Below are positions 8,057-31,175 of a DNA stretch of 40,680 nucleotides, one piece after another (within the stretch, counting starts at the first letter, position 1; each line of letters begins with the position of its first letter). The stretch lies in NCBI GenBank assembly GCA_003225055.1, contig QIAU01000166.1:1-40680 (forward strand), given 5' to 3'. Both the position numbers and the translations under genes were made by a program. This stretch comes from Acidobacteriota bacterium. Its GTDB lineage: Bacteria > Acidobacteriota > Terriglobia > Terriglobales > Acidobacteriaceae. The notes beneath the pieces were generated by a model. It had not been told where the DNA came from. It worked only from the letters and a program-made list of their open reading frames with translations, and did no database searches.

Positions 8057-8419
8057 CTAATCAAGAAACCGTTGTAGCACGTCGGTCAGAACTGCCACAT
8101 CGATCGGCTTCGTCAGATATCCATCGAAGCCGGACTGCAGGACTTTTTCGCGATCGCCCTGCATGGCGTAAGCAGTGAGTGCCAATACCGTCAGGTTGGC
8201 AAGATGCGGGGTCTGCCGAACCTGGCGCACGACGGCATATCCGTCCAACACTGGCATCTGGATGTCGAGCAATATCAAATCAGGCGTGGATTCCTTCAGC
8301 CTTTCGAGAGCTTGTTGGCCGTCCTCGGCCTCAATAACTTGGTGTCCACAGGACTCCAGAATTTCTCGTATCAACTCCCGATTGGGGAGGTTGTCTTCTG
8401 CCACAAGGACCTTGCTCAT
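8057..8419 (-). CDS. Single-domain CheY-like response regulator
   Basis: A 120-residue stand-alone receiver with all the usual residues: E8-D9 acidic pair, phosphoacceptor D52 (LILLDIQMP), T82 and K104 (YLTKPID). There is no output domain, so it should act by protein contact or as a phosphorelay intermediate. Its ATG overlaps the stop of the upstream hybrid kinase gene in an ATGA arrangement, implying translational coupling and that it is the kinase's direct partner. Receivers of this kind resemble those that follow hybrid kinases with DivK-like roles. It is the last gene of the five-gene signalling operon. Confidence 0.92.
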   Translation of the reverse strand: MSKVLVAEDNLPNRELIREILESCGHQVIEAEDGQQALERLKESTPDLILLDIQMPVLDGYAVVRQVRQTPHLANLTVLALTAYAMQGDREKVLQSGFDGYLTKPIDVAVLTDVLQRFLD

Positions 8420-10761
8420 GACTGTCCCATCGCCTTAGCCAGCTCAGATTTGCCTATTGCCTTACGAAGTTGCGCCAGGAGGTCTGCCTCCCAGGAAGTG
8501 TGCTTGCGGAACAAAGCGCGAGCCTGTCGCTTCAGGAGTGCACTCTCCGCTTCGGTGAGGTCCTTGGCGGTGACAACGAAAACAGGAATGTTGTCCCACT
8601 CCGGATGCTGCTTTATTGCGCGAAGGACTTCGAAGCCGTCCATCTCGGGCATCAGCAAATCGAGCAGGATTGCGTTAATGGGAACTCTCGACAATAGCTC
8701 AAGCGCATCCTTGCCACTCGACACCGCATGCGGAGTGTAGCCGGCCGAACTCAAAGTGTCGCTCACAACATCAAGCGCTCCTGGGTCATCGTCCACCACA
8801 AGGATGTTGTGAGAAGGCCCGGACTCGGTTCGCAGATGTTTGCGCAGTGCCGCGAGAAGTGCAGATTTCTGCACCGGTTTGACCAGGTACTCTGCAGCTC
8901 CCAAGGTGAAAGCCATTTCCTTTTGATCTACTACTGAAACCACAATAATCGGGATCTGGGCCGTCACAGCGGTTTTCTTAAGTTCCGAAAGAGTCCCGAA
9001 CCCACTCCCGCCCGGCATGAGTATGTCCAAAGTGATAGCATCTGGCTTCAGTTGACGGGCGTTTTCGACGGCCTCCGCCCCGGAGCCGACTGCTTTTACT
9101 GCATAACCCGCGCCTTCCAAGTAGCTCGCCAGGAGCTCCCGTGCTGGCGGTTCATCGTCCACAACTAGCACGAGCGGCTTTTCACGCTCAATGTCGGGTT
9201 CTGCCTTTCGGTTTTCGGTTAACACACCTTCCGTTCGCGTCTCCGCAGTTTCCCGCCCCGCCGGCAGGGTAAAGGTGAAGCAACTGCCTTTGCCGAGTTC
9301 GCTTATGACCTGAATGGTTCCCCCTTGCCGCTCAACCAGGCGCTTGGTAATGGCAAGCCCCAACCCGGTGCCCTCCTTCACGCCTCTGGTGGTCTCTCCC
9401 GCCTGCCGGAATTCCTCAAAAATCAATTGCTGATCCTCCGGCCGAATACCGAGACCAGTATCCCTGACCGAGATCGAAACCAAGGTGCCGTTATTCGAGC
9501 TTTCAACTCGCACCCTTCCTCCCTCGGGAGTAAATTTCAACGCATTGCTGAGAAGGTTGTACAGGATTTGCTTGAATCGCACCCGATCCGCATGCACAGA
9601 AAGATTTTCTTCTGTGTATTCGACGTGTATCTTCTTTGCCATTGCGAGTGGCCGCACTACAGAGAGCACTTCTGGCAGCGCTTCGGAGATACCGAAGCTT
9701 TCGCGTCGAAGTTCAAGCAATCCCGATTCGATCTTCGACAGATCCAAGATGTCATTGATAAGCTGCAGCAGGTGTCGAGCACCGTTTCGCACGTGTCCTA
9801 CAAAACGTTTCTGCTTGTCTGTGAGATGGTCCGCTGTTTTCTCGGCCAAAAGATCAGAAAAGCCGACGATTGCATTCAACGGCGTCCGAAGCTCATGGCT
9901 CATGCTCGCGAGGAACTGGCTTTTTAATTGCGTGGCTCGCTCTACTTCACGGTTCTGTCGCCCCAGCTCCTTATTGGCGGCGGCAAGCTCGGCAGTCCGT
10001 GCTTCAACCCGTTGCTCCAGTTCGCGATGTGCGTCTCGCAAAGCTTCGTCGCGCTGACGAATCTGGCCCAACATGTCATTGAAGGCATGGATCAGGATGT
10101 CCGGTTCGTCTCGGTTTCCGGTTGGGGTGGCCAACAACGAGTAGTTTTTCTCCCGCGAAACGATGCGTGTAATTTCCGCTAAACGCACGATAGGTTCCGC
10201 GACCGCCCGCTGAAAGACAGATGCCACCAGAAGCGCCGCGACGAGACATGCTGCCAGCACGATGCCGGCGATGCCTGCATATCGTTTTAGGCGGTGATTC
10301 ATCTCCTCTAGATCAGAACGGATATAGACAATGCTGGTGGGTTTTCCCTCGAAAACGATTTTCCGGGCCACCACGAGCTGGCCACCTCTGAACGAGTGGA
10401 TCTCCGTCTGCCCGGGGGGGGCAGCTGGCATGGTTAGGATGTCGCCGCTGCCGTCGCGCGAGTACGTCGCGAAGGGGCGGCCGTCGAGCGTATAAATGCC
10501 GGCTGATACAATATTCGGAGCGGCCTTCAAGGCTGCCAGAGTATTCTCAGCGCTTTGCGGATCGTTAAAAAGCAAGGCGGAAATGCTGTTGCTTCCCGCG
10601 ATTTGTGCCTCAATCGAGAGGTTGTGTACCATGGCCTCTCGAAAAGTAATCCAGTCGTAAGCGACGAATACTGCGCAAGCGATGAGCAGCGCAGAGCCAC
10701 TGACCAGGATGTTCATCCTGGTCAATCTTTTGGTGATCGAAGAGTCGCGACTCCTTTTCAT
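8416..10761 (-). CDS. Membrane hybrid histidine kinase (CHASE8-like sensor, HAMP, HisKA, two REC)
   Basis: A 781-residue protein. Two transmembrane helices (about 19-39 and 161-183) flank a periplasmic domain of about 120 residues with SISALLFNDPQSAENTLAAL and IVSAGIYTLDGRPFA, the pattern of CHASE8 sensors such as that of YfiN. HAMP (184-240) and a coiled coil follow. The HisKA H-box is SMSHELRTPLNAIVGF with H289. The ATPase has the N-box NLLSNALKFTPEG (N406) and G-boxes DTGLGI and GTGLGLA. Receiver 1 (about 529-645) has D579 as acceptor; receiver 2 (about 652-770) has D701. It lies 17 bases after the YfiR-like gene and overlaps the next receiver gene by four bases. It presumably phosphorylates its own receivers and the downstream CheY-like protein; the signal may come through YfiR. 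Confidence 0.93.
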   Translation of the reverse strand: MKRSRDSSITKRLTRMNILVSGSALLIACAVFVAYDWITFREAMVHNLSIEAQIAGSNSISALLFNDPQSAENTLAALKAAPNIVSAGIYTLDGRPFATYSRDGSGDILTMPAAPPGQTEIHSFRGGQLVVARKIVFEGKPTSIVYIRSDLEEMNHRLKRYAGIAGIVLAACLVAALLVASVFQRAVAEPIVRLAEITRIVSREKNYSLLATPTGNRDEPDILIHAFNDMLGQIRQRDEALRDAHRELEQRVEARTAELAAANKELGRQNREVERATQLKSQFLASMSHELRTPLNAIVGFSDLLAEKTADHLTDKQKRFVGHVRNGARHLLQLINDILDLSKIESGLLELRRESFGISEALPEVLSVVRPLAMAKKIHVEYTEENLSVHADRVRFKQILYNLLSNALKFTPEGGRVRVESSNNGTLVSISVRDTGLGIRPEDQQLIFEEFRQAGETTRGVKEGTGLGLAITKRLVERQGGTIQVISELGKGSCFTFTLPAGRETAETRTEGVLTENRKAEPDIEREKPLVLVVDDEPPARELLASYLEGAGYAVKAVGSGAEAVENARQLKPDAITLDILMPGGSGFGTLSELKKTAVTAQIPIIVVSVVDQKEMAFTLGAAEYLVKPVQKSALLAALRKHLRTESGPSHNILVVDDDPGALDVVSDTLSSAGYTPHAVSSGKDALELLSRVPINAILLDLLMPEMDGFEVLRAIKQHPEWDNIPVFVVTAKDLTEAESALLKRQARALFRKHTSWEADLLAQLRKAIGKSELAKAMGQS

Positions 10762-10778
10762 CAGTGGCCAGCCTCCGT

Positions 10779-11387
10779 CTACGAACTCCGTCTCACGCTA
10801 ATTGCGACCTTCAGGAGTTGGGAGCTGAGGGTTAATCCATTCCGCTCGGCGCTTGTGAGATTAACTTCGAAGCGCACCCTGTTCTCCTCTGTAACAAACT
10901 GGATCATCCCGCCTCGCCGAGTGAACTGCGGCATGTCGCTCACGGTTAGAACACTTGCTTTGTCAAGCGCTGCCAAGATGTCCTTGAGGTGAACCTGCTC
11001 CGACGAACTGATGAACAGAATGTGGCAGCCAAACGCCTCCTGGGCTTTCGAAAGTCGTTTAAGAAGGACGTTCTTGCCCCGAATGTTCTCGCCGGCGATC
11101 GTGGTGCCGAAGGTGGGGCCAAATGGGTCCTGGCCCAACACACAAATGTTGAACGAGCTGTCGGATACTGTCATGTTGGCAGGCCACTCAACAAACTTGC
11201 CGAAATTGTAGAGATATGCCGCCTTGACCTGATATTCAGTCGGGGGCGACTGGCCGCAGAGGGCCGGAGTTGCAACGAGCAGCACCACAAGTGCCAGACC
11301 TACGCCGCTAAGCCACGCACCCCGATCGCAGTCCACGGGGCACCGTAGTGTTTGTTTGTCGGTATCCGTAACGTCGTGCACTCGCAT
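10779..11387 (-). CDS. YfiR-family periplasmic protein (DUF4154)
   Basis: The ATG at 11387 overlaps the receptor stop codon (TGATG). A longer form from 11408 would overlap the receptor by 22 bases. A hydrophobic signal segment (LSGVGLALVVLLVATPALCG) is followed by EYQVKAAYLYNFGKFVEWP, the hallmark of YfiR/HmsC-like DUF4154 proteins. GKNVLLKRLS, CHILFISSSE and VLTVSDMPQFTRRGGMIQF follow in family order. In Pseudomonas, YfiR is a periplasmic repressor of the diguanylate cyclase YfiN. Here no GGDEF gene is in the operon; the next gene is a kinase with a YfiN-like periplasmic domain, so that kinase is the probable target. It is mature in the periplasm. Confidence 0.9.
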   Translation of the reverse strand: MRVHDVTDTDKQTLRCPVDCDRGAWLSGVGLALVVLLVATPALCGQSPPTEYQVKAAYLYNFGKFVEWPANMTVSDSSFNICVLGQDPFGPTFGTTIAGENIRGKNVLLKRLSKAQEAFGCHILFISSSEQVHLKDILAALDKASVLTVSDMPQFTRRGGMIQFVTEENRVRFEVNLTSAERNGLTLSSQLLKVAISVRRSS

Positions 11388-13501
11388 CACCGTTGCCCCG
11401 TTTGCCACGTGAGTTTTGCGTACACGCCTCGTTTAATGCCGACAAGACCGCCGGGGTCGCCTCCGAACTCTGCGTGATGCGGTTGAAACAGGTTCTGCCC
11501 GACTACTGATAGATTCAGGCCGCTAGTGGCCCGCCAAGTGAATCCGAGGTCCGCAGTGCTATAAGCTCGCACCTGTTGGGCTGGCAGCGTACTCACATAG
11601 CGCAGAATCTGATCAAGCGTGAACTTTTTGGTGAAATGCAGAGAAGATTGAAGGAGCACGAGATGGTGCGGGTTTGAACCCTCGGTTGACGGCACGGTGG
11701 TAGTATCCCGGCTGGCGGCACTCTTGCTCAAATTCATGTGCAGATAGGAATACGAGCCTCTCAAGCGCCACCAGGGCGTTAGCGTCCAATCAGGGGCAAT
11801 TTCGAATCCGGCCGTATTGCCCAATAGCCCGTTGCGAAACATGAAGGGTACGACGACGTGCGCGGGGGGCGGTGAGGTCTCGGCAAAGGTCACCCCAGGC
11901 TCAATACTTAGAAGATGGTCATAGTTGTTGTAAAACGCAGCTATGTCTACGTATACATCCGGCTTTACGAGGCTGCGATATCCGGCTTCGTATCCAAGCA
12001 GATGCTCCGATGAGAACTTTCTGTCGCCAACAACGCGGAAGAAGGTCAGCGGATTGGGAATCATCAGCGCGGTGAGCTGAAGGTCTTCTTCTATGCGGGA
12101 TGGTGTTCGTACCGCGCGGGTGACTGCCGTCCATACGGTTTGCTTTCGCGTTGGTGTCCAGAGCAGCCGGGCACTGGGTTCAACCTCGAAACCACTGTAA
12201 TCATTATGAAGAAATTTGGATCCGAGGGTTATCGAGAGACGATCTCCAACGATCGGGATTTCGTCCTGTACAAAGACGCTATAGAGCTTGTCCGTCTGAC
12301 GATAAGGCGTGAACACGACAGTGGGAACGATTGGCGTAGCGGTGCCAGAACTGAGTCGAGTTCCAAGCCCCCACAGGAAGTTCTGGCGCCCGGGTAAGAC
12401 CAAATGATGAATGAAATCGATATCGAACGTATCGCGGGTCTCAGCAAAATTTGGCTGTGTTCTATCAGTGCGGTCGTAGTAGGTCTGCAGCTGAATGTCC
12501 GAGCCTTCCCCGAAGACATGCTTCCAACGAGCAAGGAGATTACCGCCCGCTACCTCGCCATTTTGTTCCACGTTGGTGGAGTAGGGTGCTGTGTAAGTCG
12601 TAATCCCAACGCTTTGTCCCGCGTCGCCGTTGTAGAGGTCACCTTGAACAGTCAGGGTGTCGCGATTGTGTAAGCCCCAGTCGGTGCGGAATCCAGTTTG
12701 AGCCATTCGCCAATCATCAAATTGCCTGTTGTTTGCATGAAATTCGGGACCGCGTGTGAAAGCTTTCCCGTAGACGCGGTAATCAAACGTTTTGCCATTC
12801 CCGGCGCCGTACCGGAAATTAAGGAAACCTTGATCAAGATTTCCACCGCCTGCTGAGGCGAGCACGCCATGAGTGTCTCTCGCGTTCTTGGTTATGATGT
12901 TAATGACCGCATTGACTGCGTTTGCCCCCCAGATCGTGCCACCAGGTCCACGAATTACCTCAATGCGCTCGATATCTTCCAATGGAGTGTCTTGAACCTG
13001 CCACCATACGCCAGCGAAGAGCGGCGTATAGACGCTCCGCCCGTCGATAAGCACCAGCACCGACCGAGACAGGGAACTTCCAAACCCGCGTACGCCAATG
13101 GACCATGTGTCAGAGTCGATGCGCGCTACGTCAACCCCCGGTGCCAGGCGAAGCACTTCGGGGATACTCGTGGCGCCGGACCGGCGAATATCTTCTTGGG
13201 TAATAACGTAGATTGCCGCCGGTGTTCGACTGGCTTTGACGGGCTCTTTCGACGCGGTTGTAACCTCGATGTTTCCGAGGTCTTCCAAGCTGATCTGGGT
13301 CAGATGGTTTACGGCTTCTTCATTGTTTTGACCAGAGTCGCCCCGGCTTGCGCCCACCAGCCCGCCGACGAGAACCACTGTGATCAGAAGCGACTTATGC
13401 AGGATGGATCCCGCCTGAGAGCAAGTGATAATTCCGGATACCATTCTCGTCCGTAGGGACCGGCCTTTGGCGGAGTCGGAACGGCATAACCACGTGCTCA
13501 T
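11387..13501 (-). CDS. TonB-dependent outer-membrane receptor
   Basis: A 704-residue protein. AGGGG lies eight bases before the ATG. A signal region ends near residue 52 (HKSLLITVVLVGGLVGASRG). The plug is well conserved: SRTPAAIYVITQEDIRRSGA, LRLAPGVDVARID, IGVRGFG, VLVLIDGRSVY and IERIEVIRGPGGTIWGANAV. The rest is a beta-barrel with many aromatic strands, ending YAKLTWQTGQR (the terminal residue is not the usual Phe). It resembles the receptors commonly encoded beside YfiR-like proteins and sensor kinases. The ligand is unknown. Position between HD-GYP and YfiR genes suggests a signalling or nutrient-sensing role rather than bulk siderophore uptake, though this is inference. Confidence 0.9.
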   Translation of the reverse strand: MSTWLCRSDSAKGRSLRTRMVSGIITCSQAGSILHKSLLITVVLVGGLVGASRGDSGQNNEEAVNHLTQISLEDLGNIEVTTASKEPVKASRTPAAIYVITQEDIRRSGATSIPEVLRLAPGVDVARIDSDTWSIGVRGFGSSLSRSVLVLIDGRSVYTPLFAGVWWQVQDTPLEDIERIEVIRGPGGTIWGANAVNAVINIITKNARDTHGVLASAGGGNLDQGFLNFRYGAGNGKTFDYRVYGKAFTRGPEFHANNRQFDDWRMAQTGFRTDWGLHNRDTLTVQGDLYNGDAGQSVGITTYTAPYSTNVEQNGEVAGGNLLARWKHVFGEGSDIQLQTYYDRTDRTQPNFAETRDTFDIDFIHHLVLPGRQNFLWGLGTRLSSGTATPIVPTVVFTPYRQTDKLYSVFVQDEIPIVGDRLSITLGSKFLHNDYSGFEVEPSARLLWTPTRKQTVWTAVTRAVRTPSRIEEDLQLTALMIPNPLTFFRVVGDRKFSSEHLLGYEAGYRSLVKPDVYVDIAAFYNNYDHLLSIEPGVTFAETSPPPAHVVVPFMFRNGLLGNTAGFEIAPDWTLTPWWRLRGSYSYLHMNLSKSAASRDTTTVPSTEGSNPHHLVLLQSSLHFTKKFTLDQILRYVSTLPAQQVRAYSTADLGFTWRATSGLNLSVVGQNLFQPHHAEFGGDPGGLVGIKRGVYAKLTWQTGQR

Positions 13502-13528
13502 GAGTTGTCCCCTTGGACAGAGTTGTTA

Positions 13529-14503
13529 TTAGCTGCCTGCTCCGCCGGCCGCCGCCGCAGCGTTAGCGGGCATTTGGCAAAACTCGCGAAAAATGACAGG
13601 ATCCCACCAGCCTTTGTTGACCTCTTCTTCCATGATTTGTAGAGCCTCCGTGCGTGGCAAGGCGGGCTTGTAGGGCCGTTGTGTGGTCAGTGCGTCGTAA
13701 ACGTCCACTATCTGCATAACTCGAGCCGTCACCGGAATAGCGTCGTTTTTGAGTCCATCCGGATAGCCCGAGCCATTCAGTTTTTCATGATGATGGCGGA
13801 TGATTGGCAACAATGGCCGAAATGATCTCAGCGGCGCGCAAATACGCTCGCCCACTATTGGGTGCTGCTGTACGATTTGGAATTCCTCGGGAGTTAATCG
13901 GGCTGGCTTTAGCAGGATCGCATCCGGCACGGCAACCTTGCCTATATCGTGAACGATTCCGGCTCGGCGTAAGGCCATGATCTGGTCCTCGGGCAAGCCA
14001 ATTCGTTGTCCGAGTCCAGCCGCATAGCCTTGCAGTCGCTCACAGTGACCCTCGGTGCAGGGATCTTTGCCCTCAATCGTGCGCGCCAGAGCGAAGAGAA
14101 CCGATTCCGCACGCTCTAGTTCGTCGGTGTAGGCTTTAAGACTCAGAAGAGAGCGCACATGTGCCAATAACTCGTTCTGATCAAAAGGCTTGCTTAAGAA
14201 ACCGTCCGCCCCGGCCTTGATTCCTTTAACTCGATCCTCGGCCGCCGATAGTCCTGTAACGAGCACCACCGGGGTGAGACGCGTGTCGGGGTTGCTCTTG
14301 AGTCGTCGGCAAACCTCGAATCCGTCCAAGAACGGCATATTTACGTCGAGCAAGACCAAGTCGGGCTGGAGACGCGCGAACTGTTGAAGGGAGCTGCGGC
14401 CGTCAGGAGCGGTGACAACGTCTAATCCCTCAGCGTGCAGGAACTCCTCCAGCAGCTCGCGATTAACCGCATCGTCATCGACGACCAAAATCTTTCCTGC
14501 CAT
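13529..14503 (-). CDS. REC-HD-GYP response regulator (probable c-di-GMP phosphodiesterase)
   Basis: The start at 14503 (MAGKILVVDDD) is chosen because GGAAGG lies just upstream; the longer open frame to 14638 has no receiver-like N-terminus. It is 324 residues long. The receiver (1-120) has D53 and K105. The HD-GYP domain (about 130-310) has HCERLQGYA, the HD pair at 185-186 (IVHDIGKVAVPD), HHHEKLNGSGYPDGL with GYP at 246-248, and VDVYDALTTQRPYKPA. These are the metal-binding and signature residues of active HD-GYP phosphodiesterases that hydrolyse c-di-GMP. It is the first gene of the operon, 27 bases before the TonB receptor. It is the likely output of the hybrid kinase encoded further down. 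An inverted repeat lies upstream. Confidence 0.93.
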   Translation of the reverse strand: MAGKILVVDDDAVNRELLEEFLHAEGLDVVTAPDGRSSLQQFARLQPDLVLLDVNMPFLDGFEVCRRLKSNPDTRLTPVVLVTGLSAAEDRVKGIKAGADGFLSKPFDQNELLAHVRSLLSLKAYTDELERAESVLFALARTIEGKDPCTEGHCERLQGYAAGLGQRIGLPEDQIMALRRAGIVHDIGKVAVPDAILLKPARLTPEEFQIVQQHPIVGERICAPLRSFRPLLPIIRHHHEKLNGSGYPDGLKNDAIPVTARVMQIVDVYDALTTQRPYKPALPRTEALQIMEEEVNKGWWDPVIFREFCQMPANAAAAAGGAGS

Positions 14504-14683: not shown

Positions 14684-15046
14684 TCAGGTCGAGGATTCCG
14701 AAGCCTCCTGTGCGGCATCTAAGCAGCAACGTAGCTCTTCTTGGTCTTCGTGCAACATCTTGGGGAACTTGATCCCATTTCCTGCGTTTGGATCGCAGGT
14801 GACCACCGTTCCCAGCGCAAGCACTGTGCCATCAATCTTTCTGGCGATATCGAGCTTGGTGTCTTTTGCCAATGTGAACATCAGTTCTATGTAGCAGCCG
14901 CCCAAGCTAATGTCGGACGTTTCGCCACCGATCGGAACTTCGCTGCCCTCAAGACGTAACTCCACCGGCACACGCACTTTGACACGTGGGTGTTCTCTTC
15001 GATCCTGCTGCTAGCCGGGGACGCTGTTCTCGCCGGTGTCCCCCAT
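14684..15046 (-). pseudogene. PilZ-domain protein with in-frame amber codon
   Basis: The open frame from a GTG at 14977 gives RVPVELRLEG, TSDISLGGCYIEL and GNGIKFPKM, a PilZ domain with its (D/N)xSxxG motif (DISLGG). The c-di-GMP-binding RxxxR motif lies upstream of that GTG, in the same frame, as DRREHPRVKV. Between the TAG at 15011-15013 and the GTG there is no ATG, GTG or TTG. In the same frame beyond the TAG there is an ATG at 15046 with eleven sense codons (MGDTGENSVPG). So the natural gene appears to be about 120 codons with a nonsense codon at position 12. It would bind c-di-GMP if intact; as it stands either it is dead or only a form lacking the arginines is made. Confidence 0.7.
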
Positions 15047-15744: not shown

Positions 15745-16155
15745 TCAGTGCGGCAGCCGATCAGGCTTTTTAGCGCTAGGAAAGTTCAGGCAGTTGAGCA
15801 CCGTCTCTACAAATTTCTGCCTTTCAACTGGTTTAACCAAGTATGCGGCTGCCGGCATCAGGTCGAGGATTCGTGGACTGATTCCCGAGACCACAATGGC
15901 CGGGATTTCTGAGGTTTCCGGCATGTTTCGTAGTACAAAAAGCGTTTGAAGACCACCATGCCCCGGCATCAGCACGTCTGTCACAACCAAGTCGGGTAAC
16001 AACCGACGTGCTTCCTCAATGGCCGCTGTCCCCGAGGAAACGATCACGACAGCGTAGCCTTCTGGTTCCAAATAACTGGCTAACAATTCGCGCGAAGCAA
16101 GATCGTCGTCCACAATCAAAACCAGCGGCCTGTCTCGCCTTGGTCTTGTAGACAC
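15745..16155 (-). CDS. Stand-alone receiver-domain protein
   Basis: A 136-residue protein from a GTG at 16155. It is a single receiver with D16-D17, phosphoacceptor D60 (LVVTDVLMPGHGG), S90 and K108 (YLVKPVERQ), and a short basic tail. Its sequence is unusually close to receiver 1 of the hybrid kinase at 8416-10761: both share the DD-acid pocket context, ARELLASYLE/SRELLASYLE and AAxYLVKPV. This suggests an intralocus duplication. No output domain is present. It is separated from the operon by pilT and PilZ relics, so its partner kinase is not indicated by position alone. Confidence 0.85.
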   Translation of the reverse strand: MSTRPRRDRPLVLIVDDDLASRELLASYLEPEGYAVVIVSSGTAAIEEARRLLPDLVVTDVLMPGHGGLQTLFVLRNMPETSEIPAIVVSGISPRILDLMPAAAYLVKPVERQKFVETVLNCLNFPSAKKPDRLPH

Positions 16156-16361
16156 CCATCAAACTTACGCGAATGGGATGGCTGCGCAAAGTTACCTTCG
16201 TTCACCGGCGGTGTGGTTCGGTCCTCTCAGTCGCAACCAAGCCTGCGCCGTTTCGCGCACAATGACCTTGAGTTTGGGGATGAGCACCCGGCGCTAAAGC
16301 CGTAGAGAGGATTACGAAAGGCATCTTACGTCGATAACGTTGACACCGCTAAGCTGCCTTG
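16156..16361. other. Divergent intergenic region between receiver and GGDEF-EAL genes
   Basis: About 200 bases separate the two divergent starts. I see no clear -35/-10 pair and no recognisable gene. A minus-strand ORF at 16349-16540 overlaps the neighbouring start and has no supported function. Confidence 0.4.
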
Positions 16362-18521
16362 ATGTCAACATCGGTGCGAAACTCTGCGCCTTCAAGTGAG
16401 ATTCCGGTGATTAAGAACATCTCCTCGTTTATTCGGCAGACGAGCTGGGTACCGCCCGATGTGCCGGGTACTACAAGTCCGCCCATGAAACAAATCGAGC
16501 GCCGCGAGTGGTGGCTGTGGTCATCTGTAGTCATTGTCACTCTGCTGCTGACCGCTGGAATAGCTTCGCTTGCGCTTCCGCTGCTGCACTCTGAGACGGA
16601 CAGCTCTTACAGGGAAAATATTCGGCAGTCATTGCGCGGGTTGCTCGGACTGGTATTGCTGTTTGACATCTACTCTGTGTACCAGCAGTTTCGGATCCAT
16701 CGCATCCGTCGCCAGTTGATGTCGCGCGATGACATGTTTCGCGTCATCAGCGAAAACGCAGCTGACATGATCGCGGTGGTGGACGCAAATGGGAAGAGGA
16801 TTTATAACAGCCCAGCATACGAGCGGTTGCTTGGTTACACCCCCGAAGAGTTGCGGACCACGCCCGCGCTCGAACAGGTCCATCCCGACGATCGCGCGCG
16901 AGTGGCACATGCAGCAGAGCAAGCACGCAAGTCGGGGCGTGGCGAAAGGATAGAGTACAGGATCCGACACAAGGACGGGAGTTGGCGGGTTCTGGAATCA
17001 ACGGCCAGCGTGGTGCGGGATGCGAGTGGCAAATCGAACAACCTGGTGATCGTCAACCGCGACATTACCGACCGCAAGCGGGCAGAGGAGCGGCTTCAGC
17101 ACAACGCTTTTCACGATGCGCTCACCGATTTGCCGAATCGTGCTCTTTTCCTGGACAGGTTGGAGCGCGCCTTCAGCCGTGCTAAGCGGCATCCGGAATA
17201 CAAATTTGCCGTGTTATTCGTGGACATCGACGATTTCAAGAAATTCAACGACAGCCTTGGCCACGCAGCAGGAGACGACGTGCTGGTGCAAATTGCACAA
17301 CGGCTCATGAGTTCGTTGCGCAAAAACGACACGGTTTCGCGGCAGCCGCACGAGGGTGAAGGTCCACCCGCGAGTCACGACAGCGTGGCACGCCTGGGTG
17401 GTGATGAATTCACGATTCTCATTGAGGACATTCACGATGCTAGTGACCCTATACGCGTTGCAACGCGAATTCAGAAGGTGTTAGCCGCTACGCCGCTGTC
17501 AATCGGTGAACAGGAGATATTCGCCTCCGCGAGCGTGGGCATTGCGTTGAGCACCAGCCCGCACGAAAGGGCGGCAGACCTGCTGCGAGACGCAGATTTG
17601 GCTATGTACCGGGCAAAAGACTTAGGCAAGTCACGCTGTGAGGTCTTCGATACGGCCATGCACGCAAACGCCGTCAAACGCCTGCAACTAGAGACTGACC
17701 TGCGCAAAGCCATCGAGCACGGGGAACTCTGTGTGCACTACCAGCCCATCGTGCGCCTGTCGGATATGAAGATCGTTGGCTTCGAAGCACTGGTGCGGTG
17801 GCAGCGACCGCATGTTGGTTTGATTCCCCCGGCAGAGTTTATTGTCGTGGCGGAGGAAAGCGGTCTAATCGTTCCTATGAATCGCTGGCTGCGTCTAGAG
17901 GCATGTCAGAAGATGCAGTTGTGGCAGGCGGAATTTCCCTGCAATCCACCGCTGACACTAAGCCTTAACGTGACGGCCAAGGAGTTTGCGCATCCTGGGT
18001 TAATAAACGATATTGTTCAAGCTTTGGAGCAGACAGGCCTCGAGCCATCCAGCTTGCAATTCGAAATTGTCGAAACGGTCGCGATGCGCGACGGAGAAAA
18101 ACCGGAAGGCGTGCTTCGACAGGTCACAGCTCTCGGCGCACGGCTGAGCATCGACGATTTTGGCACTGGGTATTCCTCGTTGAGTCGGTTGCGGCATCTT
18201 CCGGCAGATACATTGAAGATCGATCGCGCTTTTATCTCTCGCATGGACATCGATGGCGACAACAGGGCAGTGGTTCGCACCATTGTGTCACTGGCGCACA
18301 ATCTCGGCTTGATGGTGGTAGCGGAGGGCACGGAGACTCTGGAAGAGGTAAATGAGCTTCTAGCGATCGACTGTGAGTATGCCCAAGGCTACTTTTTTTC
18401 ACGCCCAGTGGACGGAGAGACCGCCTTGCAGATGCTGAGAACCGGTCTTTGCAACCAGGGGTCGTCTAGCCGAGTGGCCACCGCAAAGCCACTCCCGTTG
18501 CCGGTCAGGAATCCGCGTTAG
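16362..18521 (+). CDS. Membrane PAS-GGDEF-EAL c-di-GMP enzyme
   Basis: About 719 residues. A variable N-terminal 42 residues precede two membrane helices (about 52-75 and 91-107), so a start at 16485 (MKQIERREWW) is possible; neither ATG has a clear ribosome site. The PAS domain (about 122-240) begins MFRVISENAADMIAVVD. The GGDEF domain (about 245-435) has an intact ARLGGDEF motif, FVDIDDFKKFNDSLGH and a Pro/Glu/His-rich insert before the signature that leaves no RxxD inhibitory site. The EAL domain (about 440-690) keeps FEALVRWQRP, LNVTAKEF, FEIVET, DDFGTGYSSL and VVAEGTET. Both activities are therefore plausible. It is the only diguanylate cyclase in the window, next to the HD-GYP operon. 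Confidence 0.92.
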   Translation: MSTSVRNSAPSSEIPVIKNISSFIRQTSWVPPDVPGTTSPPMKQIERREWWLWSSVVIVTLLLTAGIASLALPLLHSETDSSYRENIRQSLRGLLGLVLLFDIYSVYQQFRIHRIRRQLMSRDDMFRVISENAADMIAVVDANGKRIYNSPAYERLLGYTPEELRTTPALEQVHPDDRARVAHAAEQARKSGRGERIEYRIRHKDGSWRVLESTASVVRDASGKSNNLVIVNRDITDRKRAEERLQHNAFHDALTDLPNRALFLDRLERAFSRAKRHPEYKFAVLFVDIDDFKKFNDSLGHAAGDDVLVQIAQRLMSSLRKNDTVSRQPHEGEGPPASHDSVARLGGDEFTILIEDIHDASDPIRVATRIQKVLAATPLSIGEQEIFASASVGIALSTSPHERAADLLRDADLAMYRAKDLGKSRCEVFDTAMHANAVKRLQLETDLRKAIEHGELCVHYQPIVRLSDMKIVGFEALVRWQRPHVGLIPPAEFIVVAEESGLIVPMNRWLRLEACQKMQLWQAEFPCNPPLTLSLNVTAKEFAHPGLINDIVQALEQTGLEPSSLQFEIVETVAMRDGEKPEGVLRQVTALGARLSIDDFGTGYSSLSRLRHLPADTLKIDRAFISRMDIDGDNRAVVRTIVSLAHNLGLMVVAEGTETLEEVNELLAIDCEYAQGYFFSRPVDGETALQMLRTGLCNQGSSSRVATAKPLPLPVRNPR

Positions 18522-23408: not shown

Positions 23409-24572
23409 TCACGCATGGTGGAAGAGCAATCCGGCAACGGCAGCACACGCGATAAGAACTGGCTCGGGTATTTTCCAGCGAAACAGTATGGCAAGGCTTA
23501 GCAAACAGATCAAAATTGTGGGCAGATCGTAAACCGAGCGACGAGCAAGGACCACCACCGCCCCCGCAATCGCCCCGGTAGCCGCCGCCGTTACGCCGCG
23601 CACGAAAGCGTTCAATTGGGGATTCTTCGCCCAGCGCTTATACGACGGCGCGAGGCACACGACAACCAAATACACCGGCAGAAAAATACCCAGCGCCGCC
23701 GCCGACGCACCCGCCACGCCAGCCACCAGATACCCAATGAATGTGACCGTGATCACCACTGGCCCCGGCGTAATCATCGCAACTGCGACCGCGTCCACGA
23801 ATTGATGGTCGGTCAGCCAGTGGTGCCCTTGCACCACGCCACCGTAGAGAAAGGGTACGACAGCGAGCCCACTTCCGAATACGAACATTCCAGCTTTGGC
23901 GAAGTACATGAAGATCTGCAACAACGTGCCGCCTGCGCCAAATGTCGCGACTGGCGGCGGCACGAAGACCAACGACAACGCGCTTCTGGCCGGCAAAAGG
24001 CTAGGGAAGGCTTTCACCAACAAGTTCACTACTCCACCCAGCAGGAAGAACCAAATGATCTCCTGCGAGGTCCATGCCGTCGAGACCGCCAGTAGCACGA
24101 ATACTGCCCACAACAACTTGTCCTTGCCGAGGGTGAGCTTGGTCAGCTTAAAAGCTGAACGCGCGATGATTCCAATCACGGCGGCGCCGATCCCATAGAA
24201 CATGCCTTGCATCCAGGGAAGGCCTCCGAAGCGGACGTACGCCGCCGAGAGGCCCAAGACCATGATGAAGGATGGGAGCACGAATGCCACACCCACCGCA
24301 GTAGCTCCGAACGCGCCCGCCCGAATGTAGCCGAGATAAATTGCAAGCTGCGCTGCAAGGGGGCCCGGTGCGAGTTGCGCCAGGGCGAGACCTTCCAGAT
24401 AGTCTTCTTTGCCCACCCAGCCGCGATCATCCACCAGGTCTTGCTGCATGTGTCCCGCAAGAGCAATCGGTCCACCAAATCCCACGGTACCGAGCCACAG
24501 AAAATATCTAACGAATTGAGTGAGAGACACTCTCGTTGGCTCGTGCACGACCGGGTTGATTTCTGGGTTCAT
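23409..24572 (-). CDS. chrA: ChrA chromate efflux transporter
   Basis: A 387-residue membrane protein with about ten hydrophobic helices and the two homologous halves of CHR-family transporters. The first half carries TVGFGGPIALAGHMQQDLV and LAQLAPGPLAAQLAIYLGY; the second carries GAGGTLLQIFMYFAKAGMFV, FGSGLAVVPFL and VAMITPGPVVITVTFIGYL. The PGP motifs and FGGP/FGSG motifs are family signatures. ChrA exports chromate across the inner membrane. The start overlaps the DUF1259 stop by four bases (ATGA), so it is translated from the chrB-DUF1259-chrA message. Confidence 0.95.
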   Translation of the reverse strand: MNPEINPVVHEPTRVSLTQFVRYFLWLGTVGFGGPIALAGHMQQDLVDDRGWVGKEDYLEGLALAQLAPGPLAAQLAIYLGYIRAGAFGATAVGVAFVLPSFIMVLGLSAAYVRFGGLPWMQGMFYGIGAAVIGIIARSAFKLTKLTLGKDKLLWAVFVLLAVSTAWTSQEIIWFFLLGGVVNLLVKAFPSLLPARSALSLVFVPPPVATFGAGGTLLQIFMYFAKAGMFVFGSGLAVVPFLYGGVVQGHHWLTDHQFVDAVAVAMITPGPVVITVTFIGYLVAGVAGASAAALGIFLPVYLVVVCLAPSYKRWAKNPQLNAFVRGVTAAATGAIAGAVVVLARRSVYDLPTILICLLSLAILFRWKIPEPVLIACAAVAGLLFHHA

Positions 24573-25471
24573 TTTGCTGAGTTTGTATTATCCAGCGCAG
24601 CTCGCAGGCCCTTCGCTAGCTTCACCGCATCGTCATTCGCCCAAAAATGCATAAAGAAGAGACGAGGCTGTTCCTCAAGCATGTGACTATGGATGGCTGT
24701 AACCTGAATAGCGTTCTGCCGGAGGGCCCTGATCACCGGATTGACTTCGGTGCCTAGAAGAACAAAATCTCCCGTGACTGCTGCCTTTCCTGCGCCCGTC
24801 GGCTGAAAGTTCAATGCCGTTGCGAGCCCCATGGAACCAGGCACGGGCATTCCAGCTTCGGTTATCTTCTCGGCCCTGGGAACTCCAACCTGATATACGC
24901 CTCCATTGACTTTCCCCTTGTGCCCAAGAACTTCATCAATGGCTGTAGTGTCCAGATCGAAAGCAGGCGGAGTAGTCGGGGGTTGAGTGGGAGCGGGCGT
25001 CTTCGTCAACGCCATTACGTGCCTCACCGAGCCAGCCAATTTGACTGCATCCCCGTGGCCCACAATGTGCATGTACATCACGCGGGGCGTCTCATGAAGA
25101 ACGTGATTGTGCAGCGCCGTGATTTGCAGCCCGTTTTCTTCGAGTGCCAACATCACCGGCGAGACTTCGTCTTCAGCTAGTACAAGGTCGCCCATTAGCA
25201 TCGCGTCCTGACCGGGGCTGCTGAACGCGACCCATGATCCGAGCGCAAGTGTGGGTTTCACCTGCACGCCATCGACAGTAACCTTGAGGTCCCCGCGTGG
25301 CAGTCCGAATTTGTAAGCTCCATCGCCTTGCAGTTGGCCTGACCGTCCGAGAGCCTGTTCGACTGCTTTCCAATCATTAGCAGCCGGAGCAGTTTGCGCC
25401 GCCACCGCGCAGCTCAGGACAAAAAGTTGAACCAGCGCCAACACATCAATTCTCTTAGTCATGATTGTCAT
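24569..25471 (-). CDS. Secreted DUF1259 (LppY/LpqO-like) protein, duplicated domain
   Basis: 300 residues, with a signal peptide (VLALVQLFVLSCAVAAQ). The start may be 25462 (MTKRID) rather than 25471. Two DUF1259 copies are visible. Residues about 32-155 carry WKAVEQALGRSGQLQGDG, LMGDLVLAEDEVSPVM and ITALHNHVLHETPRVMYMHI. Residues about 173-295 carry IDEVLGHKGKVNGGVYQVG, VTGDFVLLGTEVNPVIRAL and VTAIHSHMLEEQPRLFFMHF. The conserved HNH/HSH and MH pairs could bind metal, but no activity is established for the family. It sits between chrB and chrA with 12 bases to the former and overlap with the latter, so it is part of the chromate operon, acting outside the cytoplasm. Confidence 0.88.
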   Translation of the reverse strand: MTIMTKRIDVLALVQLFVLSCAVAAQTAPAANDWKAVEQALGRSGQLQGDGAYKFGLPRGDLKVTVDGVQVKPTLALGSWVAFSSPGQDAMLMGDLVLAEDEVSPVMLALEENGLQITALHNHVLHETPRVMYMHIVGHGDAVKLAGSVRHVMALTKTPAPTQPPTTPPAFDLDTTAIDEVLGHKGKVNGGVYQVGVPRAEKITEAGMPVPGSMGLATALNFQPTGAGKAAVTGDFVLLGTEVNPVIRALRQNAIQVTAIHSHMLEEQPRLFFMHFWANDDAVKLAKGLRAALDNTNSAK

Positions 25472-25483
25472 GATTGCTCCTTT

Positions 25484-26416
25484 TTAACGGATTCCGTTGT
25501 AAAGCCCTTCGATCATCTCCATGCCTCTGCGCAACACTTCTTCATTCGCCACCCCTTGTTTGTTCCATCCGTCTAATATTCGATCGATCCCAAGCGCTTC
25601 GGTCCTTCCAAACTGTTCGTCCGCGAAATCCGCATCATGAATCGCCTGCGAAACAAGCCTCAACCGGGAATCCTTAATGCCGAAGCTCTTCACGAGGGTT
25701 TCAAAGGTGCAGTCGTTGCCAACGTGACCGAAACCGCCGGCGTTGAACATGTCGAAAGGAATTGCGTGAGGATGGCGCCGTGGGTCTTTGTCGAAAGCGA
25801 ACTTCGCGTGAGGATCAATGTAGCGCAAAATCAGCCACGCAGAAGAGACGCGGTCGATCCCAGGTTGTGGACGAGTGATCCAGGCGCGCCCAACGTAGTC
25901 TTTGGGATTCTTCTTACCTTCTCTTTCTTTTTCTGTGCCGTGATCACTTGCGAGGTGACCGACGGCCTCTTCGATTCGAGCACGTATAGGAGATCCGAAG
26001 AAATCAATCTCAACGATCTGCTGTAAGCGCCTCTTCAGGCGCACAACGCCCGGTTCCGACTTGCCACGGTTTGACAGCTTCGCCAACTTTTTCAATTCTT
26101 TTTCGAGGACTTGATACTCGCGGGTTCGGGCCTCGTTGAACATGTGCTCGATCTGCTCGTTTCTAAGCTCGTCAAAGGACCACACTTGGGCGACGGCAGC
26201 CTGTCCTTTTGAGCTGCGAATGGACGTGGCGAGCCACTCGAAGCGCTCCTGGTTCATGGAATTATTGGGGAGCACATAGCCCGAGGCGGGAAGGGCGACA
26301 GCACCATATCTCTGAAGCTTTCGCCAAACACCGACACGTTCGCTCGCTTTTGCGGTCGGCAAGGTGAAGACAAGAAAGAGCCAAGAGGCGGGTTGTGGCT
26401 TACGAGATACGCTCAT
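25484..26416 (-). CDS. chrB: ChrB chromate-resistance protein
   Basis: 310 residues with the two ChrB regions. The N-terminal part (8-150) has WLFLVFTLPTAKASERVGVW and RKLQRYGAVALPASGYVLP. The C-terminal ChrB domain (about 170-300) has WITRPQPGIDRVSSAWLI, RYIDPHAKFAF, IPFDMFNAGGFGHVGNDCTF and AIHDADFADEQFG. ChrB proteins regulate or assist chromate resistance and have been reported as chromate-responsive regulators. It is the first gene of the operon with DUF1259 and chrA. Upstream, on the coding strand, TATGTTATAAC (about 26434-26444) could serve as a -10 region and contains the palindrome GTTATAAC. Confidence 0.93.
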   Translation of the reverse strand: MSVSRKPQPASWLFLVFTLPTAKASERVGVWRKLQRYGAVALPASGYVLPNNSMNQERFEWLATSIRSSKGQAAVAQVWSFDELRNEQIEHMFNEARTREYQVLEKELKKLAKLSNRGKSEPGVVRLKRRLQQIVEIDFFGSPIRARIEEAVGHLASDHGTEKEREGKKNPKDYVGRAWITRPQPGIDRVSSAWLILRYIDPHAKFAFDKDPRRHPHAIPFDMFNAGGFGHVGNDCTFETLVKSFGIKDSRLRLVSQAIHDADFADEQFGRTEALGIDRILDGWNKQGVANEEVLRRGMEMIEGLYNGIR

Positions 26417-29033: not shown

Positions 29034-31175
29034 ATGCATGTTCACAAACCTGCAAAGTACATAGACAAGGCCCTCTCCTGTGCCGCGAGTGCTGTTTGGG
29101 TCGTGTTTGAGATGTTGAACCGAATCAAGCCGAACCCTTCATTCAAACCCAAGTGGTCCGACAAACCACTGCTTAAGTCCTGGGAGAAGACCAAGCCCCA
29201 GCTCGGCTGGCCCCGAACCACCGACTCTCTGTGCCCGAAATGCGTGCCGGAAATTCGCCAAGAGATCCTGGATGGCAAGAAGCCGCTTTCGGCTCTGACC
29301 GACGAAAGACCCGGCGAGATCAAGGCGCAGATCATCGAACAGGACGGCAAGATCCTGATGGTGAAGGATTGCCCGCAGCACGGCCGCTTCCAAGACGTGA
29401 TGTCCATAGATGCAGCATTCTCCCAGCACTTGGAAAAGGTCTTCCCGGGTCGCGACGTCCGGGCGCACAACGACGAGAAGCTCCACAAGCACGGCAGCAG
29501 CAGCATTCGTTACGGCCGGGGATCGGTCTTAACGATTGACCTCACTAACCGCTGCAACATGATGTGCGACCCGTGTTTTATGGACGCGAATCAAGTGGGT
29601 TTCGTCCACGAATTGACCTGGCACGACATCAAGACACTGCTCGATAATGCCATCTCGATCAAGCCCCGACGACAAATGTCGGTGCAATTCTCCGGCGGGG
29701 AGCCGACCCTATCCCCTTACTTTCTAGATGCCATCCGCTATGCACGCAAACTGGGGTACAACAGCGTGCAGGCGGCGACGAACGGAATCGAATTCGCGCA
29801 GAGCCCGGAGTTCTGCCGGCAGGCCTTTGAGGCCGGCCTCCGCCTCGTCTATCTGCAGTTTGACGGCATCGGGAATGCCGCGAACTCCCACCGCAAGGTC
29901 GGGAACTTGTTCGACGTGAAGCTCAGAGCCATAGAGAACCTGCATAGCGCAGGCGTCGACATCGTACCTGTTACCACCATCGTCAACGGCATTAACAACG
30001 AGCAGGTCGGGCGGATTATAAAGTTCGCAATCGACAACAGCGACAGGATTGATTTCCTTTCCTTCCAGCCCGTCTCCTTCACGGGGCGCGATGAAGGCAT
30101 AAGCGACGAACGGCGCACGGCGCAACGGTACACCCTGTCGCACTTGGCGCATGACGTCAAAAGACAGGCAGGTCTGGGCGAGCCGGCGCGAGACTGGTTC
30201 CCGATCTCCTTCATGAGCACCTTCTCGGATTGGGCCGACCTCACGCACGGCCCCCAGGCCGATTGGGGGCACTTGAGCTGTGGCTGCCACCCCAATTGCG
30301 GCTCGGGCATGGTCGCGGTCGTTGACAAGGTGACCAGAGAGGCGGTCCCGCTCACCCGCTTTGTGAACATGGAGCGGCTTGCCAGCGATGTCAGCAAGAT
30401 TAATGACGCGGCGCGAGGCAGATTCTTGTCGGTTTTTGGGATGGTGTTGGCCGTGTTTAGGAACTACAACCCCTTTAAGGCCCCGCGGCACTTCACCATC
30501 CTCGATCTCTTCAGGAAAGTGGACAAAGTTTACGGAGCGACTGGCAGAGACTACGGAAAAGTGTCAGCGGACAGGACGAGGGAGGATGTCGAGAAGCGGC
30601 GTAGCGACCGCTGGGCCTTCCTCGTGATCGCCGGCATGTGGTTCCAGGATCTGTTCAATTACGACTTCCGCCGCACCGAGCAATGCATCATCCCATACGC
30701 GACCCAGCAAGGCGAGATCTCCTTCTGTGCGTACAACACCGGCATCGGCTGGCGCAAGATCGTGGAGAAGATGCACGTGACCGCCAGTCTGACCAAGTGG
30801 TATGAAGAGCACGGGCGGCATGAAATCTTCGCAGGCGGAAAGAGGGTGGGTTTGCAATCCGCTGAGCATTCGTTGGCCGTGCGGGACGAGCTCGTCACCA
30901 AGGAGCAACAACACGATCTGGACGCGTTAGGGGTGGCAAAGAATGCGCGCGAGGAAAAACTTCGAGCGCGAGACGAAAAATGGAGGAGGGATGAGGATAA
31001 CGCCCGGATGGAGAAGCTCTACCGCGAGCACGTTCTCAAGGAGCCACCCCGTCCCACGCTGGTTCAGCTGACAGGTGCCCAGCCTGCCAAGTGGGAGACA
31101 AAGGAAGAATCGCCAGTGCCAAAAGCGGCGACCGCGGTCCTAGTCAAGACGGAGGAGGAAAATGACGCATCGTAG
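29034..31175 (+). CDS. Tes-like radical SAM protein (candidate membrane-spanning lipid synthase)
   Basis: 713 residues. GAGGA eight bases upstream supports the start. The N-terminal region has LCPKC (67-70) and KDCPQHGRF (C113), followed by LTIDLTNRCNMMCDPCFMDA with the radical SAM CxxxCxxC cysteines C174, C178 and C181. Also visible are SGGEPTLSP (220-228) for SAM binding, GCHPNCGSG (C418, C422) and later C551 and C565. This order, CPxC, CPxHG, then TNRCN, is that of archaeal tetraether synthase Tes and its bacterial relatives that join two lipid tails by C-C coupling. The second cysteine cluster that I recall from archaeal Tes before the TNRCN motif is not seen. The last 90 residues are a charged coiled coil. 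The exact product is inferred. Confidence 0.8.
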   Translation: MHVHKPAKYIDKALSCAASAVWVVFEMLNRIKPNPSFKPKWSDKPLLKSWEKTKPQLGWPRTTDSLCPKCVPEIRQEILDGKKPLSALTDERPGEIKAQIIEQDGKILMVKDCPQHGRFQDVMSIDAAFSQHLEKVFPGRDVRAHNDEKLHKHGSSSIRYGRGSVLTIDLTNRCNMMCDPCFMDANQVGFVHELTWHDIKTLLDNAISIKPRRQMSVQFSGGEPTLSPYFLDAIRYARKLGYNSVQAATNGIEFAQSPEFCRQAFEAGLRLVYLQFDGIGNAANSHRKVGNLFDVKLRAIENLHSAGVDIVPVTTIVNGINNEQVGRIIKFAIDNSDRIDFLSFQPVSFTGRDEGISDERRTAQRYTLSHLAHDVKRQAGLGEPARDWFPISFMSTFSDWADLTHGPQADWGHLSCGCHPNCGSGMVAVVDKVTREAVPLTRFVNMERLASDVSKINDAARGRFLSVFGMVLAVFRNYNPFKAPRHFTILDLFRKVDKVYGATGRDYGKVSADRTREDVEKRRSDRWAFLVIAGMWFQDLFNYDFRRTEQCIIPYATQQGEISFCAYNTGIGWRKIVEKMHVTASLTKWYEEHGRHEIFAGGKRVGLQSAEHSLAVRDELVTKEQQHDLDALGVAKNAREEKLRARDEKWRRDEDNARMEKLYREHVLKEPPRPTLVQLTGAQPAKWETKEESPVPKAATAVLVKTEEENDAS

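Follow-up and report, generated by a model that had tools for sequence, protein, structure and literature searches.

Gene content of the operon

The window analysed here is the whole stretch of 40,680 nucleotides read from contig QIAU01000166.1 (positions 1 to 40,680, forward strand) of the Acidobacteriaceae assembly GCA_003225055.1. It contains a tight minus-strand operon, transcribed in the order response regulator with receiver and HD-GYP domains (REC-HD-GYP), TonB-dependent receptor, YfiR-like periplasmic protein, CHASE8 hybrid histidine kinase with two receivers, and lone receiver (Table 1). The part made up of receptor, regulator and kinase is of a known kind; what is new is its pairing with an HD-GYP protein, together with comparative evidence for exchange of the sensing head.

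All genes, their order and their overlaps are present on the minus strand as described in a first-pass annotation of this DNA. Pfam confirms its assignment of HisKA and two receivers as kinase output, of the receiver-HD-GYP protein and of the single receiver, and the phospho-acceptor is H289, as stated there. The stop codon of the receptor gene and the ATG of yfiR at 11387 overlap as TGATG, and the genes of kinase and lone receiver share four bases. For yfiR the ATG at 11387 is preferred, a longer GTG start at 11408 also being called; a longer open reading frame from 14638 is likewise called for the REC-HD-GYP gene. By inspection, the phospho-Asp and Lys motifs are present in all four receivers, with RKH replacing KP in the second receiver of the kinase; the kinase also has its N and G boxes, and the HD-GYP protein its HD / HHE..GSGYP motifs.

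Table 1. Features of the operon and of the gene upstream of it
Feature	Coordinates	Strand	Evidence and remarks
Response regulator REC-HD-GYP (cyclic di-GMP phosphodiesterase type)	13529..14503	-	Pfam Response_reg 7.9e-31, HD_5 8.7e-40; motifs by inspection
TonB-dependent receptor, NCBIfam TOL_0244 family	11387..13501	-	NF053590 650.9 bits, cut-off 645; Pfam Plug and barrel
YfiR-like periplasmic protein, NCBIfam TOL_0243 family	10779..11387	-	NF053591 164.1 bits, cut-off 125; DUF4154 (YfiR/HmsC-like) 2.8e-49
Hybrid histidine kinase, transmembrane-CHASE8-transmembrane-(HAMP)-HisKA-HATPase-REC-REC, phospho-acceptor H289	8416..10761	-	Pfam; NF053592 HK_near_YfiR_like 195.1 bits, cut-off 194
CHASE8 match inside the kinase, containing SALLF (residues 61-65, about 10567-10581)	10438..10641	-	PF17152 placed in the genome
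Single-domain receiver	8057..8419	-	Pfam Response_reg 2.1e-28
PilZ domain protein, upstream of the operon genes, same strand	14684..14977	-	Pfam PilZ 8.5e-09; candidate operon member at most

The order HD-GYP, TonB receptor, YfiR and CHASE8 kinase is repeated in six other fetched loci, L004, L005, L141, L146, L150 and L152; in L004 and L005 the contig terminates within the kinase gene. In four of the six, YfiR was compared with that of the window and is identical at 61% (L004), 57% (L005), 52% (L141) and 58% (L150) of positions. This synteny makes the operon more than a chance arrangement.

A kinase subfamily beside REC-HD-GYP genes

In a tree of 134 kinase cores the kinase of the window falls into a set of 15 rows with a Shimodaira-Hasegawa-like approximate likelihood ratio of 100, nine of them with CHASE8-type and six with PAS-type sensors (a quick tree without bootstrap, long branches flagged). 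Twelve of these 15 rows are labelled with a REC-HD-GYP gene, on whichever strand, at a midpoint-to-midpoint distance of up to 6.5 kb. When 17 genomes, author-picked from 43 YfiR-bearing ones, were searched, 15 subfamily kinases with at least 56% identity to that of the window were recovered, the next match lying at 40%; 10 of the 17 genomes have an HD-GYP protein with at least 60% identity. The controls were the 35 kinases most like that of the window, taken in order with YfiR-linked ones excluded; 14 of the 17 genomes are represented among them, and they were, as were all kinases inside these genomes, listed by similarity alone. Some controls have cut flanks, and one (L226) has a CHASE8-like call without YfiR. 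By hand count on the maps, a REC-HD-GYP gene lies within 3.5 kb of 9/15 subfamily kinases and of 1/35 control kinases (Fisher 1.7e-5). Without the window the same comparison gives 8/14 subfamily kinases (Fisher 5e-5).

A tree of 28 HD-GYP rows, including one distant row, requires five changes of TonB context, of which starred branches force at least four. One further locus of the genome of the window (L192, contig C140, 1980-4610) holds a REC-HD-GYP gene followed by a TonB receptor gene, which is read in two frames and truncated where the contig ends; the HD-GYP protein of L192 clusters with its counterparts in L004 and L005.

The sensing head is inherited apart from the kinase core

Pairwise tree distances were compared over the 65 loci holding all parts, the kinase core being part of the same polypeptide as CHASE8. 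Distances of YfiR correlate with those of CHASE8 at a Spearman coefficient of 0.60, against 0.20 with the kinase core (difference 0.41, bootstrap 95% 0.27-0.55), and once CHASE8 is accounted for the partial correlation between YfiR and kinase core is -0.005. The TonB receptor behaves alike, with 0.52 for CHASE8 against 0.22 for the kinase core. The trees of YfiR and TonB receptor thus track CHASE8 and not the kinase core: the head is inherited apart from the kinase body.

Identities along the kinase of the window follow opposed patterns. With four PAS-type partners it shares 64-73% in HisKA-ATPase and 18-37% ahead of it, with the CHASE8 relatives L003, L163 and L016 52-63% over residues 1-180 and 30-33% in HisKA-ATPase, which places a break between HAMP and HisKA. 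Other CHASE8 rows are less clear-cut: over residues 1-180 and HisKA-ATPase, respectively, L004 and L005 reach 61-62% and 52-57%, and L049 35% and 40%, while L138 and L140 are close throughout. These comparisons would be most simply read as a standing kinase/HD-GYP cassette on which the sensing head was exchanged repeatedly.

CHASE8 sensor and YfiR

A periplasmic domain resembling CHASE8 and a HAMP domain had been ascribed to the kinase in the first-pass annotation. The domain search bears out the former, with a Pfam match at residues 41-108 (E 1.1e-14, 54.9 bits against a cut-off of 27) followed by HisKA, HATPase_c and two receivers. No HAMP is listed by Pfam in the kinase at E 0.01 or better; its presence is suggested by position and by the helices of the predicted model. 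A motif NS.AAL.F.DP is conserved in the sensors of the 65 loci, and SALLF seems to be the counterpart of AAVVF of YfiN, judged by pattern and place rather than by alignment to YfiN. The sensor model, built from 66 sequences (mean predicted local distance difference test, pLDDT, 84.1), retrieves generic PAS-like sensors of the extracytoplasmic kind, among them WalK and CitA, in a fold search; by sequence, the sensor has no match among solved structures at E 10. The genome of the window contains two CHASE8 matches and two YfiR, adjoining each other both times, and both CHASE8 domains belong to kinases. The second copy (L049) is followed downstream by a receiver and a REC-PAS-GGDEF-EAL protein.

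The identity of YfiR, also proposed in the first-pass annotation, is established by the DUF4154 match, by a NF053591 score over the cut-off and by structure: in a fold search of the PDB with the AlphaFold model, built from 60 sequences (mean pLDDT 94.8), the top 15 matches are all entries for YfiR or its complexes. Behind these (model of 10779-11258) come substrate-binding proteins together with a similar domain (8wgl, 6k1x, 5z6v, 3lkv) at a TM-score of about 0.6, a hint that YfiR may bind a ligand. By sequence, the protein reaches YfiR of Pseudomonas aeruginosa at E 0.002 only. Two cysteines are shared in their alignment, and the YfiR of the window lacks the two close to the C-terminus; from the cysteine pairing of the P. 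aeruginosa protein we take the absent residues to be its second pair. The YfiR equivalog NF053586 scores 37 bits, below its cut-off of 85.

Survey of YfiR loci

NF053591 exceeds its cut-off in 19/149 genomes of the phylum, 40/120 of the family and 19/397 of a second phylum, which was reached through the Azohydromonas locus L040. By likeness to the YfiR of the window or its family, 126 YfiR segments were collected, distinct by sequence only, and 98 of them have at least 2.5 kb on each side (full flanks); L047, whose YfiR is split over two frames, is counted twice within these 98. Loci with a YfiR segment already seen (e.g. L130, L151) and the short fetches L001, L002, L050-L079 and L119-L128 were dropped, and L229-L270 are unused. 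Domain profiles of the survey were home-made and seeded with proteins of the window, so that remote domains may be missed.

The first-pass annotation had envisaged a survey of the co-occurrence of YfiR with hybrid kinases. The 98 full-flank loci have as output a kinase in 81 cases, GGDEF-EAL in 3, a CHASE8-like frame with no recognised output in 5 and no CHASE8-like frame in 9. A same-strand TonB receptor is found no more than 4.5 kb away in 78 (directly upstream in 68), one on the opposite strand in 7, and none in 13. Among 20 regions fetched from the second phylum, the 19 over the cut-off all possess a kinase and the one below it a GGDEF-EAL protein; the TonB receptor is directly upstream in 17 of the 20. 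With kinases at 81/98 and 19/20 loci, the loci examined show a kinase as the normal output of this YfiR family.

Enzymes of c-di-GMP turnover are placed variously. In L138 the REC-HD-GYP gene is on the opposite strand; in other loci, e.g. L024, L129, L137, L154 and L049, REC-GGDEF or REC-PAS-GGDEF-EAL follows the kinase. L152 (6273-17444) combines REC-HD-GYP upstream of the receptor with REC-GGDEF downstream of the kinase in one module, a layout in which both synthesis and degradation of c-di-GMP may come under a single head.

Comparison with known systems

NCBIfam curates a triad of TOL_0243, TOL_0244 and HK_near_YfiR_like, the name of the kinase model denoting a YfiR-like gene nearby. All three corresponding proteins of the window are over the curated cut-offs of NF053590, NF053591 and NF053592, the kinase by about 1 bit. 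To this triad the window adds REC-HD-GYP ahead of the receptor and a lone receiver after the kinase.

With YfiBNR of P. aeruginosa the operon shares the YfiR fold and a CHASE8 sensor with an AAVVF-like motif. Unlike YfiBNR, it has a TonB receptor, a kinase instead of GGDEF, and an enzyme of the c-di-GMP-degrading type; in the alignment its YfiR lacks the second pair of cysteines, and it stays under the equivalog cut-off. A search limited to the five operon proteins gave no Pfam match to an OmpA/Pal-type lipoprotein such as YfiB, and no CHASE8-HAMP-GGDEF output protein is present at the operon, where CHASE8 drives HisKA-HATPase-REC-REC.

The sections of Malone 2012 (PMC3375315) on YfiN and its relatives describe distant relatives of YfiN with GGDEF-EAL, HPt (histidine phosphotransfer) or sensor kinase outputs, including one hybrid kinase. 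There the YfiR-YfiN core is presented as modular, with hydrophobic contact residues persisting in distant relatives, and AAVVF is predicted as the YfiR-binding site of YfiN. No paired HD-GYP is named in the parts of PMC3375315 covering YfiN homologues with kinase output, and the word TonB is absent from its main text. A YfiN-like sensor rewired to a kinase, the headline of the first-pass annotation, was therefore rejected as a unique feature: kinase outputs are already reported in those sections, the triad is curated by NCBIfam, and most surveyed loci have a kinase output. Among titles and beginnings of abstracts retrieved for YfiR with TonB or kinase terms, no further paper on the topic was found.

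As for the receptor, excerpts of PMC6304351 give TOL_0244 as 7-fold up on C28 alkane compared with Tween 80 and as 40.3% similar to OmpS, which is called essential for alkane detection. The receptor of the window resembles these alkane-related receptors in scoring above the cut-off of the family named for TOL_0244, and this family name is its sole link to alkanes.

Proposed signalling and its alternatives

A single sensory head would be made up of the TonB-dependent receptor in the outer membrane, YfiR in the periplasm and the kinase's CHASE8 domain. Bound to CHASE8, YfiR would keep the kinase in one of its states; a ligand occupying the receptor may alter the availability of YfiR, as YfiB does in Pseudomonas, and thereby switch the kinase. 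Phosphate from H289 would then reach the HD-GYP receiver and the lone receiver, most likely directly or via the kinase's own receivers, and an envelope ligand would thereby set c-di-GMP breakdown, as the comparative genomics suggests. We regard this switching of the kinase by the receptor/YfiR/CHASE8 head, with phosphorylation of both receivers as its outcome, as somewhat the likelier account. Signalling from kinase to HD-GYP protein at this locus is supported by three results together, namely that the head tracks CHASE8, that the kinase subfamily adjoins REC-HD-GYP genes and that the TonB context changes. More tentative, and rather to be doubted in its full form, is the proposal that a portable TonB/YfiR/CHASE8 head has been grafted several times onto kinases of a standing kinase/REC-HD-GYP cassette, with receptor occupancy directly setting c-di-GMP breakdown and the TonB receptor replacing YfiB.

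The textbook route for signalling by outer-membrane transporters is a sigma/anti-sigma pair. The operon offers a testable route by which such a transporter could signal, via a periplasmic protein and with no sigma/anti-sigma pair, to a kinase in the cytoplasm and to c-di-GMP; repeated head exchange would supply natural chimeras for locating signal specificity.

Several results weigh against a functional coupling of head, kinase and HD-GYP protein. Six of the 15 subfamily kinases are without HD-GYP within 3.5 kb (one has it at 5.8 kb, one is cut by the contig start), and no TonB receptor and no kinase lies within 1.5 kb of 12/28 HD-GYP rows, some of which are close to the end of a contig. The kinase of L005, a locus of the same gene order, is outside the 15-row set, that of L004 is incomplete, and their HisKA-ATPase identity to the kinase of the window is intermediate (52-57%). 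Correlated trees reflect shared inheritance and are not evidence of contact. A same-strand REC-HD-GYP gene within 3.5 kb occurs at only 7/126 YfiR segments, the window included. Counted over presumed operons, c-di-GMP genes accompany 15/75 YfiR-kinase modules overall and 4/28 control kinases (p=0.58), a result on which a general link of these modules with c-di-GMP was rejected. For the family of the window the figures are 12/28 and 4/28 (p=0.037, one of six uncorrected tests), in a subset that omits members fetched earlier as L003-L048; the neighbour count also missed L102, where the frames of a REC-PAS-GGDEF-EAL protein and of the kinase share more than 600 bases. From the lack of significant overall enrichment and the 7/126 segments it follows that the c-di-GMP link belongs to the clade of the window and few others, and not to the module itself. 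Finally, a strict phosphorelay would call for an HPt protein, and a Pfam search, which would miss divergent HPt domains, gives one Hpt match in the genome, in a frame of 716 amino acids on another contig; this may speak against an HPt relay. Of the phosphorelay adjusting c-di-GMP breakdown that the first-pass annotation had suggested, the pairing of kinase and HD-GYP protein within the clade stands on comparative grounds, while a strict HPt relay is not supported.

Two alternatives leave the operon intact and assign different roles to its parts. YfiR could be a ligand-binding co-sensor rather than a repressor sequestered at the outer membrane: the receptor would bring a ligand into the periplasm, and the complex of YfiR and ligand would switch the kinase. 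The substrate-binding proteins and the similar domain that follow YfiR in the fold search are in favour of such a role, as are the alkane response of TOL_0244 and its similarity to OmpS; the fold similarity is partial, however, and a co-sensor appears rather unlikely. Less likely again is that the HD-GYP protein is a mere co-transcribed neighbour and that the kinase works through the lone receiver or distant regulators. The lack of general c-di-GMP enrichment, the few same-strand REC-HD-GYP genes beside YfiR and the frequent HD-GYP relatives with no kinase nearby would all agree with this, but the neighbourhood of kinase subfamily and REC-HD-GYP outlasts changes of sensor and genome, and the HD-GYP protein bears a receiver of its own. 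Chance assembly of common signalling genes, for which the number of kinases might be adduced (16 to 66 first-look candidates per genome), is hardly credible in view of the synteny in six further loci, the gene overlaps and the curated triad. Control of c-di-GMP breakdown by the receptor/YfiR/CHASE8 head through the kinase is the account we prefer.

Wider neighbourhood of the window

Upstream of the operon lie a lone receiver (15745-16155, minus strand) and a PAS-GGDEF-EAL protein (16359-18521, plus strand); with the PilZ protein they form a dense c-di-GMP neighbourhood. Farther away, a chromate transporter, a DUF1259 protein and ChrB stand in a row at 23409-26416 (minus strand), likely a chromate-response operon. 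A radical SAM protein with an HMPTM N-terminal zinc ribbon is located at 29034-31175 (plus strand).

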